The notes beneath the pieces were generated by a model. The model was not told where the DNA came from, ran no database searches, and saw only the letters and a list, made by a program, of their open reading frames with translations. Positions 12,366-29,185 of a stretch of 29,422 nt of DNA are shown here, in pieces. The translations under genes and the position numbers were made by a program. The stretch is from Chloroflexota bacterium. Its GTDB lineage: Bacteria > Chloroflexota > Dehalococcoidia > UBA1151 > TMED-70. The DNA lies in NCBI GenBank assembly GCA_002711965.1, contig PASM01000020.1, forward strand, positions 9,750 to 39,171, read 5' to 3'. Numbering within the stretch: the first letter of the stretch is position 1; every line of letters starts with the position of its first letter.

Positions 12366-13466
12366 ATGAAAATTACAAATGTAAAAGTAGAGTTATTCGA
12401 TTGGAAAACAGAACCTTGGAAAACAAATGATCATACACAATTTGGAAATACTGTACAACTAGGAGTAGTAACAGTAGAAACAGATGAAGGAATTTCTGGA
12501 AATTCTTTTTTGGGATCATCAAGAGTTGGTGCAGATCACCATGCTCCTGGATTAATAGAGTTTATTAAACCTATTATTATGGGTAGAAACCCACAGGATA
12601 TAGGAGCAATTTGGTCTGATCTATGGAAAATGAATAGATCTGTTTCAACTTATGTTATTGGAGCAATAGATATTTGTTTATGGGATATAAATGGAAAAAT
12701 TGCAAATCAACCCATACACAGATTAATAGGTACATGTAAGGAAACAGTTCCTGTATACTCATCTACTGCATTTCATGAAACAAAAGAACAATACGCAGAA
12801 GAAGCTTTGATTTTCAAAAATAAAGGTTGGACTGCACATAAAATTCATCCTCACGGAAACCCCAGTTATGATATTGAAATTTGTAAAGCTGTAAGAGAAG
12901 CAGTCGGAGATGATATGAAACTAATGCTAGACTCAATGTGGGCTTATCAATACGAAGATGCAATAAGAGTTGGAAGAGCAATAGAAGATTTAAATTTTTA
13001 CTGGTACGAAGACCCTTTAGTTGAAGAGGACATTTATAATTATAAAAAATTACACCAAAAATTGGATATTCCAATTATGTCAACAGAATATGCTCCCGGC
13101 AGATTTTATGGAATGGCTGAATGGATCACTGAATATGCTACAGACTTCTTAAGAGGCGATGTTGCAGTTACTGGAGGAATAACTCCAATGATCAAATTAG
13201 CAAACTTAGCAGAAGGATTTAATATGAAATGTGAAATCCATCATGGAGGGAATTCATTAAATAATGTTGCTAATTTACATGTAACAATGGCCGTACCTAA
13301 TTGTGAATTTTTTGAGTTTTTCCCTTGTACGGGAGCTAATATGTTTGGATTAGTAGAGGATATTAATTTTGATAATGGTTTCGTTACAGCTCCTACAAAA
13401 CCTGGATTAGGGTATGAAATAGATTGGGATCTATTGAAAAAAGGGCATACTGCTACTCTTGAATAA
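12366..13466 (+). CDS. Enolase-superfamily enzyme, mandelate racemase/muconate lactonizing type (copy 1)
   Basis: Mg2+-dependent enolase-superfamily enzyme of 366 aa: an N-terminal capping domain and a modified TIM barrel that abstracts a proton alpha to a carboxylate. Likely metal ligands are Asp189 (LMLDSM), Glu215 (YWYEDPL) and Glu241 (STEY). The second-strand catalytic motif is K159-I-H161 rather than the usual KxK. The opposite-face acid/base pair would be Asp265 (RGDVA) and His292 or His293 (EIHHGG), and Glu317 closes the barrel. This pattern fits the mandelate racemase subgroup, probably an acid-sugar dehydratase or racemase. The substrate is not assignable. The paralogue starts 2 nt after its stop. 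Confidence 0.9.
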   Translation: MKITNVKVELFDWKTEPWKTNDHTQFGNTVQLGVVTVETDEGISGNSFLGSSRVGADHHAPGLIEFIKPIIMGRNPQDIGAIWSDLWKMNRSVSTYVIGAIDICLWDINGKIANQPIHRLIGTCKETVPVYSSTAFHETKEQYAEEALIFKNKGWTAHKIHPHGNPSYDIEICKAVREAVGDDMKLMLDSMWAYQYEDAIRVGRAIEDLNFYWYEDPLVEEDIYNYKKLHQKLDIPIMSTEYAPGRFYGMAEWITEYATDFLRGDVAVTGGITPMIKLANLAEGFNMKCEIHHGGNSLNNVANLHVTMAVPNCEFFEFFPCTGANMFGLVEDINFDNGFVTAPTKPGLGYEIDWDLLKKGHTATLE

Positions 13467-13468
13467 GC

Positions 13469-14572
13469 ATGAAAATTAAAAATATAAAGTTAGATGTTTT
13501 TGAATGGAAAGGAACTCCATGGAAAACAAATTATCGAAATATTTTTGGACAAAATGTAAACCTAAGTGTGTTGAGCATAGAAACTGATGAAGGAATAACA
13601 GGAAATTCTTTTTTAGGCTCTTCAAAAGTAGGCTCCGAACATCACAATAAGAACATAATAAATTTTGCTAAGACTTTTTTAATAGGAGAAAATCCTCAAA
13701 ATATAGGGAAGATTTGGAATCATTTATGGAAAATGAACAGATCTCTATCATTAAATTCCATAGCCTCAATAGACATAGCATTATGGGATATTAATGGAAA
13801 AATTACAAATCAACCCATTCACAAGCTATTGGGAAGCTACAAAGAAAAAGTCCCTGTTTATAGCAGTACACCATTTCATAAAAATATAAAAGATTACGTC
13901 GATGAAGCTAGGTTTTTTAAAAATAAAGGATGGACTGCGCACAAAATACATCCTCACGGGAATCCTTATAAGGATGTAGAAATTTGCATTGCTGTAAGAG
14001 AAGAAGTTGGAGAAGATATGAATCTAATGCTTGATTCAATGTGTGCTTATGATTATGAAAATGCATTAATGGTAGGTAAAGCCATCCAGAAATTAAATTT
14101 TTACTGGTATGAAGATCCTTTAGTTGAGGAAGATATTTACAATTATAAAAAATTGAATGAAAAATTAGATATACCTATAGTTTCAACAGAATTTATCCCA
14201 GGCAGGCTATATTCAATTCCTGAATGGATCCGTGAAAAATCTACAAATATCGTGAGAGGAGATGTAGTGGCTATGGGAGGAATCACTCCTCTTATTAAAC
14301 TTACCAATATTGCTGAATCCTTTAAATTAAAATGTGAAATTCATTCAGGTTCTAGTAATTCTATGGATAATGTTGCTAACCTACATGTAATTATGGCTTC
14401 TCCAAATTGTGAATTTTATGAATTTTTCCCTTCTACAGGAGAAAACAGATTTGGGCTAATAAATGAAATTGAGTTTAAAAATGGGTATGTTCATGCTCCC
14501 AAAAAACCTGGTCTGGGCTATGAAATTAATTGGGAAGAATTAAAAAAAACATACATTGGAACTATTGAGTAA
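13469..14572 (+). CDS. Enolase-superfamily enzyme, tandem paralogue (copy 2)
   Basis: A 367-aa paralogue of the preceding gene, about 60% identical over the first 50 residues by eye and colinear throughout apart from a one-residue insertion near 297. Metal ligands Asp189, Glu215 and Glu241, the K159-x-H161 pair, Asp265 and His292 are all kept. Pocket residues differ: His293 is Ser, Trp192 is Cys, and the loop EIHHGGNSLNN becomes EIHSGSSNSMDN. Conserved catalysis with a changed pocket suggests divergence in substrate rather than decay. The ATG lies 2 nt after the copy 1 stop, so they share one transcript. Confidence 0.9.
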   Translation: MKIKNIKLDVFEWKGTPWKTNYRNIFGQNVNLSVLSIETDEGITGNSFLGSSKVGSEHHNKNIINFAKTFLIGENPQNIGKIWNHLWKMNRSLSLNSIASIDIALWDINGKITNQPIHKLLGSYKEKVPVYSSTPFHKNIKDYVDEARFFKNKGWTAHKIHPHGNPYKDVEICIAVREEVGEDMNLMLDSMCAYDYENALMVGKAIQKLNFYWYEDPLVEEDIYNYKKLNEKLDIPIVSTEFIPGRLYSIPEWIREKSTNIVRGDVVAMGGITPLIKLTNIAESFKLKCEIHSGSSNSMDNVANLHVIMASPNCEFYEFFPSTGENRFGLINEIEFKNGYVHAPKKPGLGYEINWEELKKTYIGTIE

Positions 14573-25857: not shown

Positions 25858-26513
25858 ACGTAAAATATTTATTATTTTTTTTAATATTATTATTTATTTC
25901 GTGTAATCAATTGGAAGATAATTATAAATTATGTGATTCAAATTACATATATTGTAATTTTTTTGAAATACAATTTCCAGAAATTTCCCAAATTACAGAT
26001 GATAACGCTCAACTTGCTATAGAAGACCTAAATACTTACAGACAATTAAGTGAAGATCATAAAAACAACCCATCATCAAAATCTGTATTTGAAACTTACA
26101 CAGAAATTTTTATTCCAAGATTTTCTTATCAAATTTTGGATGTAAATGCATTAGAAAAATTATGGTTTGGGCTAGCTTTATATCCTCTTGATCAAAAAAA
26201 TAATCTAACATCTACAACTGATTATTTTTATAGCAATTATCAAACTATAAATAAATCTATATACGGCGAATGTGTTAAGGATAATAATTCATACCTGGAT
26301 TCAGAAAAAAGCAAAATTTATAATTGTTCAAAAGATGGTGTAAAAAGCTATGATTTTTGGGTTTCTGATGATCAATTTATGTGGAGGATGAAATGTGTAT
26401 GGGAAGATGATAAATTTGAGGGAGTAAATCTAAATATTGTAAAATCTGAAATTGTAAAAGCTTCTGATACTTGCAGAAAATCATTTGAAAGCTTTAAGTC
26501 AAAAATTAATTAG
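25854..26513 (+). CDS. Lipoprotein of unknown function
   Basis: A 219-aa predicted lipoprotein with hydrophobic signal and lipobox LFISC (Cys17). The mature part is acidic, rich in Asn, Tyr and Ser, and has several further cysteines (Cys27, Cys34 early; ECVKD, YNCSKD, MKCVWE and DTCRKS late) that could pair in disulfides. No family is recognised. The ATG overlaps the SIMPL stop by 4 nt, and the stop overlaps the convergent sufS by 4 nt. Confidence 0.72.
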   Translation: MNVKYLLFFLILLFISCNQLEDNYKLCDSNYIYCNFFEIQFPEISQITDDNAQLAIEDLNTYRQLSEDHKNNPSSKSVFETYTEIFIPRFSYQILDVNALEKLWFGLALYPLDQKNNLTSTTDYFYSNYQTINKSIYGECVKDNNSYLDSEKSKIYNCSKDGVKSYDFWVSDDQFMWRMKCVWEDDKFEGVNLNIVKSEIVKASDTCRKSFESFKSKIN

Positions 26514-27745
26514 ATTTTACTCGTTTTAAAATAATCAACAGCTTCTTTTAAAGAATCAATAAAGATGTCTATTTCTTTATAAGTATTATAGAGATAAAAG
26601 CTTGCTCTACAAGCTGCAACAATTTCATATGATCTAACTAATGGCATTGCACAATGATGCCCTGTTCTAATAGCCACTCCATATTTGTCTAGAATTTCTC
26701 CAATATCATGTGGATGAACAGAATTATGTGTAAAAGAAATTACTCCTCCTCTATTATTCATATCAATAGGCCCAATAACTTTATAATCAGGTAATTCTTT
26801 TATTTTATCTAAAGCATAGCTTGTTATTTCATCCTCATGCTTTGCTATATTATCCATACCCACTTCAACTAAATAATCTACTGCATAACCTGTAGCAATC
26901 GCATCTGCTATATTTGGAGTTCCAGCCTCAAATTTATAAGGTAAATCATTCCATTTTGCACCTTCATAAGTTACTTCTGAAATCATATCACCACCAAAAT
27001 AAAAAGGATCCATCTTATCAAGTAAATCTTCTTTTCCAAATAGAACTCCTATACCAGTAGGACCTAGCATTTTATGAGCAGAAAAAGCAAAAAAATCACA
27101 ATCTATTTCTTTCATATCAACTGAAAAATGAGGAGCACTTTGAGCTCCATCTAAAACTAATATCGTACCATTTTTCTTAGACATTTCTCTTAATTCATGT
27201 ATGGGATTAATGACACCCAATACATTAGACATATGAGTAATTGCAATTATTTTAGTTTTTTTATCTATAATTTTTTTAGCATTATCTAGATCAATTCTTC
27301 CTTCTAAATCATGATCTAAGTATCTTAATTCAGCATTCTTTTCTAAGCACAATTGTTGCCAAGGCACTAGATTTGAATGATGCTCCATTCTTGAAACTAC
27401 AATATTGTCCCCCTGATTAACTTCTTCTTTTAAACCTATTGAAACAATATTTAAAGACTCACTTGTATTCCTTGTCCAAATAGTTTCATTTGGGGACGCA
27501 TTAATAAAATTAGCAACCTTTACTCGTGAATTTTCATATTCGTCGGTTGCTTCAACAGATAATTTATGAACACCTCTATGTACATTTGAATTGTAGTTAG
27601 TGTAATAGTCATTTAATGACTGAATTACTAAATTAGGTTTCTGAGAAGTTGCAGCATTATCTAAATATACAAGCTTTTTATTGTTCACTTGTCTATCTAA
27701 TATTGGGAAATCGTTTCTTATTTTTTCTATATTGAAATTTGCCAT
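26510..27745 (-). CDS. sufS: Cysteine desulfurase SufS
   Basis: PLP-dependent group II cysteine desulfurase of 411 aa. It removes sulfur from cysteine as a persulfide for Fe-S cluster assembly. YLDNAATSQKP near the start, the PLP lysine Lys225 in FSAHKMLGPTGIGVL, and the persulfide cysteine Cys365 in RTGHHCAMPL match the E. coli positions (226 and 364) within one residue. The ATG at 27745 has AGGAA upstream. No sufBCD or sufU is adjacent. It stands divergent, 67 nt away, from the cysteine leader peptide of the sulfur-transporter gene, which places sulfur use and import side by side. Confidence 0.96.
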   Translation of the reverse strand: MANFNIEKIRNDFPILDRQVNNKKLVYLDNAATSQKPNLVIQSLNDYYTNYNSNVHRGVHKLSVEATDEYENSRVKVANFINASPNETIWTRNTSESLNIVSIGLKEEVNQGDNIVVSRMEHHSNLVPWQQLCLEKNAELRYLDHDLEGRIDLDNAKKIIDKKTKIIAITHMSNVLGVINPIHELREMSKKNGTILVLDGAQSAPHFSVDMKEIDCDFFAFSAHKMLGPTGIGVLFGKEDLLDKMDPFYFGGDMISEVTYEGAKWNDLPYKFEAGTPNIADAIATGYAVDYLVEVGMDNIAKHEDEITSYALDKIKELPDYKVIGPIDMNNRGGVISFTHNSVHPHDIGEILDKYGVAIRTGHHCAMPLVRSYEIVAACRASFYLYNTYKEIDIFIDSLKEAVDYFKTSKI

Positions 27746-27798
27746 AATTTTTCCTGAGATACTTATATTTTAACATTAAATACCAAAAAAAATTATGT

Positions 27799-27804
27799 TA
27801 TTAT
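27799..27804 (+). promoter_or_regulatory. -10 box for the cysteine leader transcript
   Basis: TATTAT, one mismatch from TATAAT, ends 8 nt before the ATG at 27813. Normal -10 to start spacing puts the transcription start at 27811-27813, on or next to the leader ATG, so the mRNA may be leaderless. No clear -35 is seen at 17 nt. Confidence 0.45.
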
Positions 27805-27812
27805 ACAAGTCT

Positions 27813-27884
27813 ATGAATATAAGAAATTTAACAAATAACGGATGTATCTGTTGCTGTTGTATGAACAGCTCCAGGTTTCTTTAA
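27813..27884 (+). CDS. Cysteine-rich attenuator leader peptide, 23 aa
   Basis: A 23-codon frame, ATG to TAA, with Cys11 and then four consecutive cysteines, Cys13-Cys16 (27843-27845 and 27849-27860), so five of six codons 11-16 are cysteine. The peptide begins MNIRNLTNNG and ends MNSSRFL. Upstream of the ATG there is no Shine-Dalgarno but there is a -10 box at leaderless spacing. Codons 21-23 contain the left arm of an antiterminator, followed by an intrinsic terminator and the YeeE/YedE transporter gene. Such runs of regulatory codons are the hallmark of ribosome-mediated attenuation: cysteinyl-tRNA shortage would stall the ribosome here. The peptide itself need have no function. Confidence 0.85.
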   Translation: MNIRNLTNNGCICCCCMNSSRFL

Positions 27885-27923
27885 TTTGTTTTAATTTCAA
27901 AAATAATACAAAATTTAGAAACC
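27874..27923 (+). promoter_or_regulatory. Antiterminator hairpin of the cysteine attenuator
   Basis: GGTTTCT (27874-27880) is perfectly complementary to AGAAACC (27917-27923), a 7-bp stem with a long AT-rich loop that can extend weakly. The right arm includes five of the seven bases of the terminator's left arm (27919-27925), so the two hairpins exclude each other. A ribosome stalled at the cysteine codons would leave 27874-27880 free. A ribosome at the leader stop (27882) would cover it and let the terminator form. Confidence 0.75.
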
Positions 27924-27943
27924 CCTTAAACGGGGTTTTTTTT
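27919..27943 (+). terminator. Intrinsic terminator (attenuator) abutting the transporter start codon
   Basis: AAACCCC (27919-27925), a 6-nt loop TTAAAC, and GGGGTTT (27932-27938) form a perfect 7-bp stem with a GC core, followed without a break by eight T residues (27936-27943). The next base is the A of the transporter ATG. It is the only strong stem-plus-T-tract I found in the window, and it sits before a gene rather than after one, as an attenuator should. Confidence 0.85.
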
Positions 27944-29185
27944 ATGGAAAATTTAATGTTAAAAACAGAAAAAATAAAAGTATCAAATCAAAAAATCTTA
28001 GGTTGGTTATTTTTTGTATTAGTATTTATATTCTCTTTTGCGATATCACAAAATAATTTCTCTGATGCGGCTATTTGGATTGCAGCATGTGGATTAGGTT
28101 TCACTCTGCAAAAATCTAGATTTTGCTTTGCATCATCTTTTAGGGATTTATTTATGTTTGGATCTGGTCATAATATGAAGGCTGTACTTTTAGCAATGTC
28201 TATAGCTTCTGTAGGTTTTGTGGGAATATTAAAATGGATATTGCCAGATCCTGTTCCAGGCGAATTTCCTTCTTCTGCACATGTGCTTCCATTTGGTTTT
28301 TCCACATTAATTGCAGGTACTGTTTTTGGCGTAGGCATGGTAACAGCAGGAGGATGTGTTTCAGGGACAATATATAGAATAGCAGAAGGGTATGTTGCTT
28401 CAATTGTCACAATGATAGGGATTTTTATAGGCACAATTTTATTAGTAATCACTTGGGATTTTTGGTGGGATAATTTTATAAGCAATGAACCAAAAATCTT
28501 TCTACCCTCAACTCAATCCATAGGTTATGGATTTTCATTATTAATTACTATGCTTGGAATTATTTTAGTATATTTCCTAGTTGTCTATATTGAAATAAAA
28601 TCTGGTGTTGGCAGTTTCTCTATATCAAAAAAATCTGATCTTAAATCTAAAAGTTTCTTTGAAACAATCAAGCAAAATATTGATACATTATTCTCAAAAA
28701 GCTGGACAGCTTACTCTGGAGGAATTGCTCTTGGGTTTATTGGAATAGTTTATTTTCTATTTCATTCTCCACCAGGTGTAACCGGTGAAATAATGAAACA
28801 ATCAATGAATATTGCTCAAGGTATAAACCTTTCAGACGGACCTTTAAAAGGAATAGCTTCACTTAGCGGGTGCTTGGGTTCTAGTATCGAATCAGGTATT
28901 ATATCTCATACTTTCGTAAGTACAGTAGGAGTGTTCTTTGGAGCCTTAGTTTCAGCATTGCTTTCTCAAGAATTTAAAATAAGAACTCCAAAAGAAACAA
29001 AAAGATATATTCAATCATTATCTGGAGGAATTCTCATGGGATACTCTGCAAGCCTTGGAATCGGTTGTACTATTGGGGCATTCTTTTCAGCAATACCTTC
29101 ATTCTCTTTATCAGGATGGCTTTTTGGAATAAGCCTTGCAATGGGGGCATTTATTGGAACTAAAATCATTAAATTTATAGGATAA
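27944..29185 (+). CDS. YeeE/YedE-family sulfur-compound transporter
   Basis: A 413-aa inner-membrane protein of the YeeE/YedE (TsuA-like) family, whose studied members import thiosulfate through conserved cysteines. About ten hydrophobic segments form two related halves. Cysteines lie in CGLGFTLQKSRFCF (Cys49, Cys61), TAGGCVSGTIYR (Cys138), SGCLGS (Cys310) and GIGCTIGAFFSAI (Cys375). I chose the ATG at 27944. The longer frame from 27842 reads out of frame through the cysteine leader and adds residues foreign to the family. Thiosulfate or a selenium compound is possible; the cysteine attenuator upstream favours a sulfur source for cysteine. GGGG in the terminator stem is the only upstream purine tract, so the hairpin might also mask initiation. 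Confidence 0.88.
   Translation: MENLMLKTEKIKVSNQKILGWLFFVLVFIFSFAISQNNFSDAAIWIAACGLGFTLQKSRFCFASSFRDLFMFGSGHNMKAVLLAMSIASVGFVGILKWILPDPVPGEFPSSAHVLPFGFSTLIAGTVFGVGMVTAGGCVSGTIYRIAEGYVASIVTMIGIFIGTILLVITWDFWWDNFISNEPKIFLPSTQSIGYGFSLLITMLGIILVYFLVVYIEIKSGVGSFSISKKSDLKSKSFFETIKQNIDTLFSKSWTAYSGGIALGFIGIVYFLFHSPPGVTGEIMKQSMNIAQGINLSDGPLKGIASLSGCLGSSIESGIISHTFVSTVGVFFGALVSALLSQEFKIRTPKETKRYIQSLSGGILMGYSASLGIGCTIGAFFSAIPSFSLSGWLFGISLAMGAFIGTKIIKFIG

Follow-up and report, generated by a model that had tools for sequence, protein, structure and literature searches.

A probable cysteine-codon attenuator upstream of a YeeE/YedE-family transporter gene in a Chloroflexota bacterium, with similar leaders at other cysteine genes

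Cysteine-codon leaders and the locus compared

In the trp, his and phe attenuators, control codons in a short leader govern a switch between a terminator and an antiterminator, and a ribosome at the leader stop codon masks the left arm of the antiterminator. A unit of comparable design lies in 29,422 nt of DNA from a Chloroflexota bacterium (GenBank assembly GCA_002711965.1, contig PASM01000020.1, positions 9,750 to 39,171 of the forward strand; this whole stretch is called the window below). It precedes a gene for a YeeE/YedE-family transporter (yeeE) and is very probably a cysteine-codon, ribosome-mediated transcription attenuator of that gene. Control codons, the terminator/antiterminator switch and the predicted masking by a ribosome at the stop codon are shared with the classical attenuators, whereas here the codons are for cysteine, the gene is an uptake gene, and the transcript probably has almost no 5′ untranslated region. 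The window is SAR202-like; the SAR202 group of marine Chloroflexota is abundant and mostly uncultured, and the attenuator, if true, would be a regulatory mechanism legible from sequence alone in that group.

Leaderless poly-Cys short open reading frames (ORFs) were reportedly described in mycobacteria by Canestrari and co-workers in 2020. Attenuation by Cys codons is already known, in mycobacteria and at cysS of the Rhodobacterales. According to three papers, mycobacterial leaderless poly-Cys short ORFs precede sulfur and cysteine genes and are read as elements of cysteine-responsive attenuation (PMC9031893, PMC13236596, PMC9094748). Cys-containing leader ORFs of mycobacterial sulfur genes are also mentioned in a preliminary description of this stretch. 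Candidate Cys leader peptides have been listed for Actinobacteria, and the mycobacterial cys leaders are without conserved terminator hairpins (PMC1262725). The window unit is like the mycobacterial system in placing a poly-Cys short ORF, possibly leaderless as well, before sulfur or cysteine genes. It is unlike that system in belonging to another phylum, in having an intrinsic terminator with an antiterminator, and in having a YeeE/YedE transporter gene among its targets.

The uORFC-8-2 motif upstream of Rhodobacterales cysS is predicted to work as a ribosome-mediated attenuator and combines tandem Cys codons with an intrinsic terminator (PMC8632094), features that the window unit shares. That motif differs in being alphaproteobacterial and confined to cysS, with two Cys codons, usually at 14–15, that lie inside a stem (PMC8632094). 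The window unit precedes a PF04143 gene instead, and at SAR202 cysS (18 loci from 16 genomes) no leader of this type was seen. A 2010 survey names ermC and its own Firmicutes finding as the only leader-peptide systems outside Proteobacteria and Actinobacteria (PMC2965389). An Rfam search gave nothing above threshold (Phe_leader, RF01859, scored 26.4 bits where its gathering score is 55). The preliminary description knew of no such attenuator for a YeeE/YedE gene in this kind of bacterium, and a search of the literature on SAR202 YeeE and on cysteine leader peptides or attenuation in Chloroflexi, in which subscription journals were mostly not covered and most of the papers listed were not opened, likewise found no report of this case.

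Anatomy and conservation of the yeeE leader

The features of the locus are listed in Table 1. The 23-codon ORF with Cys at codons 11 and 13–16, the two antiterminator arms and the eight-T terminator of the preliminary description were all confirmed in the sequence at the positions it gave. The terminator stem pairs AAACCCC (27919–27925) with GGGGTTT (27932–27938), and since 27919–27923 belongs to both the antiterminator and the terminator helix, the two hairpins are mutually exclusive, as had been proposed. An alternative in-frame ATG at 27795 would give a 29-codon leader. Because sufS is divergently transcribed, the hairpin and its T tract terminate no upstream gene.

Table 1. Coordinates of the leader unit and neighbouring genes within the window
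Feature	Coordinates	Strand	Remarks
Putative extended -10 promoter element	27796..27804	+	TG 27796-27797, TATTAT 27799-27804; ends 8 nt before leader ATG
Leader ORF, 23 codons, MNIRNLTNNGCICCCCMNSSRFL	27813..27884	+	Stop TAA 27882-27884; Cys-run leaders in relatives too
Predicted sensor codons	27843..27860	+	Cys 11 at 27843-27845; Cys 13-16 at 27849-27860
Left antiterminator arm GGTTTCT	27874..27880	+	Within last leader codons; base-paired to 27917-27923 when nascent RNA is folded
Right antiterminator arm AGAAACC	27917..27923	+	Overlaps terminator 5′ arm
Predicted intrinsic terminator, hairpin 27918-27939, GAAACCCC/GGGGTTTT, -10.7 kcal/mol; T tract 27936-27943	27918..27943	+	
YeeE/YedE-family transporter gene (PF04143)	27956..29185	+	Pfam E 1.2e-59; probable start ATG 27956
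Next gene, first 78 codons	29188..29422	+	No Pfam match
sufS, SufS-family cysteine desulfurase gene	26510..27745	minus	577.5 bits (cut-off 475.1); divergent

The proposed course of stalling, termination and response to cysteine would be as follows. RNA polymerase would start at or a few nucleotides from the leader AUG, and a ribosome would load at once. With scarce Cys-tRNA it would stall on codons 11–16 and leave the left arm (27874–27880) free, so that this arm could pair with the right arm (27917–27923) once the latter is transcribed; the 5′ arm of the terminator would then be held, and the polymerase would continue into yeeE and its operon. With plentiful Cys-tRNA the ribosome would reach the stop codon and cover the left arm, the terminator would form, and transcription would end near 27943.

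Relatives were collected by an alignment-based scan of genome contigs, which gave 76 loci (L numbers) from the best 80 of 84 matches. Within the Chloroflexota set of YeeE upstream regions (n = 42: the window, L001–L038, L040, L041 and L045, with redundant loci and the unassigned L033 counted in), 25 contain a short ORF with at least three Cys in six codons; none of the 35 loci from other phyla has such a leader (maximum two Cys in six codons; L070 offered 108 nt of upstream sequence). For comparison, 439 regions ahead of other long ORFs were taken from the window, L001–L041 and L045. Of these, 13 reach the threshold, 11 with three Cys, two with four and none with the five of the window; both four-Cys regions proved to be similar leaders, each preceding a sulfite reductase-like gene. 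Two further Chloroflexota YeeE leaders (L080 and L097) were found in whole genomes.

On a YeeE tree of 47 rows, with some long branches and an unsure deep placement, the leader is present in 12/12 members of the window clade, 19/21 of the enclosing clade, 3/10 of its sister and 1/16 of the remaining rows (23/47 in all). The leader label changes six times on this tree, compared with 16.0 times after shuffling, and none of 500 shuffles was as low. L009, L035, L038 and L045 (N-rich sequences or duplicates) and L041 were left out of the tree. That the ORF arose by chance before a plain terminator is barely credible. Cys-rich short frames do occur, with 145 candidates in 781 kb (both strands) before any filter for terminators; a chance ORF would nevertheless have to be squared with a leader conserved across the YeeE tree, with control upstream regions poor in Cys runs, with recurrence at other sulfur operons, with a hairpin that has no upstream gene to end, and with close relatives among which absence of the Cys run was not seen.

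In an alignment of the window with seven relatives, invariant columns make up 9/9 of the left arm (27874–27882), 12/12 of the terminator 3′ arm and T tract, and 7/9 of the right arm and terminator 5′ arm, followed by 12/18 in the Cys run. They are fewer in leader codons 2–10 (7/27), in the loop between the arms (8/34) and in the hairpin loop (0/6). The antiterminator helix is paired in 94.6% of the alignment cells, the end pair 27880/27917 being missing in three of the eight sequences. The reading frame through the left arm differs among relatives, the leaders ending in RFL*, LVSLIC* (L004) or RVSSV* (L006–L008); the same letters are read in different frames, so it is the nucleotides that are kept and not the peptide. 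L003 and L011, which share 78% YeeE identity with the window, have arms of entirely different letters and the same architecture. The preliminary description had named an alignment of relatives as a check, with loss of the Cys run or of either stem as the outcome that would count against it. Such losses were not seen in the window clade, where Cys run, pairing and terminator are kept; the covariation also looked for there did not appear.

A functional Cys-rich microprotein that binds metal or thiols, followed by an ordinary terminator, is very unlikely on this evidence. Cys clusters of the CxCCCC type could bind metal, and to that extent the idea has some appeal. Across clades, however, the leader peptides share little except Cys, with variable ends and a length that ranges from 8 to some 50 residues according to the start chosen, the C-terminal codons shift frame where the nucleotides stay, and the target genes are genes of cysteine supply.

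The start of the leader transcript was examined through -10-like hexamers, defined by A2 and T6, at least four of six matches to TATAAT, and an end 6–10 nt before the leader start. Such a hexamer is present in 19 of 21 YeeE leaders (mean 7.0 and maximum 14 of 21 in 2000 shuffles; 55 of 194 first-ATG starts of long ORFs), an excess that is somewhat flattered because the leader start codons, several of them among multiple candidates, were chosen by the analyst after the hexamers had been seen. In L003, L011, L016, L024 and L037 the hexamer is joined by a TTGACA box, with 17 as the spacing. The position of these elements suggests that the YeeE leader RNA begins at or near the leader start codon and that the leader may be leaderless. 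In L117–L119 (leader ahead of the ThiF gene), L133 (ahead of cysK) and L003 (ahead of the sulfite reductase-like gene), the leader comes directly after a gene on its own strand, and co-transcription with that gene is more likely.

According to the preliminary description, the terminator ends at the ATG of the transporter gene. The ATG at 27944 does touch the T run, but the transporter probably starts at ATG 27956, which is invariant in the eight aligned sequences. In L002 and L146 the ATG equivalent to 27944 has TAA directly after it, and in L149 a GTG at the equivalent position runs into a stop, with an ATG 13 nt further on open as far as shown. This start, the possibly leaderless leader and the regulon presented below go beyond the preliminary description.

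Two further sets of loci are of note. At L014, L018, L036 and L040, where yeeE has no Cys leader, inspection by eye shows a hairpin of the CCCC/GGGG type and a T-rich stretch within about 150 nt upstream, which may act as a premature terminator of a different type. At L023 and L041, from high-GC Chloroflexi, an upstream short frame contains CAGG(I/L)C(S/A)CS, possibly a diverged Cys leader.

Terminators and alternative pairing

Of 32 leaders, 31 have a hairpin and T tract behind them, 24–47 nt from the leader stop codon; the 4/4 leaders added later have them too. L097 is the single leader without a hairpin and full T tract and was left out of the folding tests, and L009, L035, L038 and L045 were used neither there nor in the hairpin count. 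Nascent RNA was folded with the ribosome at the last Cys codon, masking assumed to extend 13 nt from the first base of that codon, and the RNA 3′ end set after the terminator 5′ arm.

For the window, the minimum free energy (MFE) of the antiterminator fold is -10.4 kcal/mol, compared with a mean of -4.4 kcal/mol for dinucleotide shuffles (p = 0.010). The terminator 5′ arm is held at 0.75 with a stalled ribosome (0.40 in shuffles, p = 0.020) and at 0.21 with the ribosome at the stop codon. A fold stronger than shuffles at p < 0.05 was obtained for 28 of 35 leaders (17/22 YeeE and 11/13 others), and the median hold on the terminator 5′ arm over the 35 is 0.68 when stalled and 0.10 at the stop. 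With unrelated terminators of the same loci, a control set whose small size (n = 20) counts against the comparison, the MFE test was positive in 5/20 (Fisher p = 1.2e-4 against 28/35) and the hold test, which asks for a 5′ arm held above shuffles, in 0/20 (p = 0.002 against 13/35). Right arms were also exchanged among 16 of the 35 leaders, one picked per clade or operon type. The native combinations sum to -217.4 as against -147.9, and none of 20000 permutations was as good (z -7.1); for the ten YeeE leaders among them the result was again 0/20000 (z -4.3). Clade conservation, native pairing and recurrence before other cysteine-supply genes together give good in silico support to the attenuator of the preliminary description.

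Several results weigh against it. No covariation was counted among the eight aligned close sequences, because arms and helices hardly vary there, and the leaders are not phylogenetically independent. The stricter hold test succeeded in only 13 of 35 leaders (11/22 YeeE, 2/13 others), and the MFE test failed for L016, L017, L024, L030, L037, L103sir and L119cys. In L024, L037 and L128cys a ribosome stalled on the last Cys codon gave a lower hold than one at the stop codon, L124cys showed no hold whatever, and the hairpin of L103sir is weak (-3.1 kcal/mol). Among 15 swapped right arms, some matched the native arm in L006 (six), L003 (five), L020 (four), L101sir (three) and L024 (two), and one equalled it in each of L025, L030 and L118cys. 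When the 3′ arm was added and the RNA folded to full equilibrium, the terminator prevailed in most cases despite the stalled ribosome: the difference between the two states is at least 0.5 in 4/35 leaders, and 15/35 beat shuffles (window terminator 0.48 when stalled, 0.96 with the ribosome at the stop). Co-transcriptional folding must therefore be assumed. That no leader was seen at cysS, a natural member of such a regulon, is a further point on this side.

As a separate observation, L016 and L017 failed the MFE test at the last Cys, yet their native right arm beats all 15 swaps if the region from the first Cys is allowed.

The same hairpins could in principle act on translation, hiding the ribosome-binding region of yeeE until stalling at the Cys codons opens it, with no termination of transcription. 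In close relatives no more than about 12 nt lie between the end of the T tract and the probable gene start, and the mycobacterial poly-Cys precedent is described as translational in two papers (PMC13236596, PMC9031893). Translation attenuation is nevertheless improbable here: the hairpins bear T tracts, roughly 10–60 nt separate the T tract from the start in L016, L017 and L019, as they do where the gene is sulfite reductase-like, ThiF or cysK, and the GGGG of the window 3′ arm lies 20 nt from the probable start at 27956.

Leaders at other cysteine genes and the sulfur setting

The same anatomy recurs before a gene with a match to NIR_SIR in L003 (genome G002), L011, L101 (G009) and L103 (G007; the gene frame contains an internal stop), that is, in three of the four genomes with a NIR_SIR match plus L011. 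It is also found before a ThiF-cysK unit (L117–L119, L122, L124 and L126–L128) and before cysK itself (L133), so that a cysK or ThiF-cysK leader was recognised at the best loci of 9/19 genomes; the remaining cysK upstream regions were screened for three Cys in six codons only and partly read by eye. Some ThiF-cysK leaders have two Cys only, for example L122, a second leader of G001, which is the genome of L001, the nearest relative of the window in the tree. In the 781 kb scanned on both strands (the window and parts of G001, G002 and G006), seven of the 145 Cys-cluster ORFs are followed by a terminator, and six of these precede yeeE (three), ThiF-cysK, cysK and the sulfite reductase-like gene. 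The contigs had partly been picked for holding such genes, so the scan, which misses leaders with two Cys codons, shows specificity and not frequency. Several predicted attenuators of this kind in SAR202 genomes form a small cysteine regulon that covers sulfur uptake, a sulfite reductase-like function and cysteine synthase. The L003 protein fits nitrite and sulfite reductase models below their cut-offs, and sulfite reductase is therefore a presumed function.

Some candidates were set aside. On visual inspection, the Cys frames before cysS in L209, L210 and L222 were taken for other frames of the preceding gene, and a Cys-containing frame before the sulfite reductase-like gene of L102 (G064) is not leader-like.

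The transporter matches PF04143 with 202.9 bits (cut-off 27). The named proteins among its close relatives are from SAR202 or Dehalococcoidia, and in the YeeE tree it falls among Chloroflexota. The curated TsuA models stay below cut-off (NF052577, 121.2 bits against 400; NF041049, 95.4 against 645), as does the best curated model, the selenium-metabolism model for YedE/FdhT (NF033796, 190.3 against 350). Every NCBIfam cut-off is missed and YedE/FdhT scores higher than TsuA, so thiosulfate can be named only as a presumed substrate. Downstream of yeeE in L001 come a 74-aa ORF that falls in no family, a TusA-family gene and a gene for a rhodanese with two matched stretches, and a role of yeeE in cysteine supply may be read from this operon context (TusA, rhodanese) only. 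The leader would link a transporter of undecided substrate to cysteine supply.

Matches to cysKM are present in 19/19 genomes, six over the curated cut-off, and matches to NIR_SIR in 4/19. PF01507 (phosphoadenylylsulfate, or PAPS, reductase) is matched in 6/19 genomes, in two over cut-off (G008 by 0.4 bits) and strongly only in G009, where yeeE has no Cys leader. A strong match occurs in 0/17 genomes with a yeeE leader and is likewise absent from G080, whose yeeE has no Cys leader, an absence that is weak evidence because the completeness of these metagenome-assembled genomes is unknown. With PAPS reductase strong in 1/19 genomes, import of reduced sulfur may be a main route to cysteine. The chances seem about even that, in SAR202, the path from reduced-sulfur import to cysteine is governed by a set of distinct poly-Cys attenuators. 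Each operon would have its own, several would be leaderless, and their sequences would be replaced completely with no change of architecture. Charging of Cys-tRNA would then serve to sense sulfur in a lineage where sulfate reduction seems mostly to be missing, and the leader would mark this YeeE/YedE branch as one of cysteine supply. The leader of L101 belongs to Ca. Lucifugimonas marina JH1073 (G009, with yeeE locus L018) and could make the idea testable, if that strain can be had in culture.

In L117–L119 the Cys leader sits between an Rrf2-family gene and ThiF-cysK. The Rrf2-family gene of L117 (87–560), the only one tested, encodes a protein that scores 68.0 bits to CymR, below the cut-off of 195, and similar ORFs lie upstream of ThiF-cysK in L118–L121, L129 and L131. 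Since several ThiF-cysK units are preceded by a gene of this family, they may be under a protein regulator as well. Elsewhere in the window, at 12366–14572, a pair of neighbouring, similar ORFs (366 and 367 aa) looks by eye like a tandem-duplicated enolase-superfamily gene.
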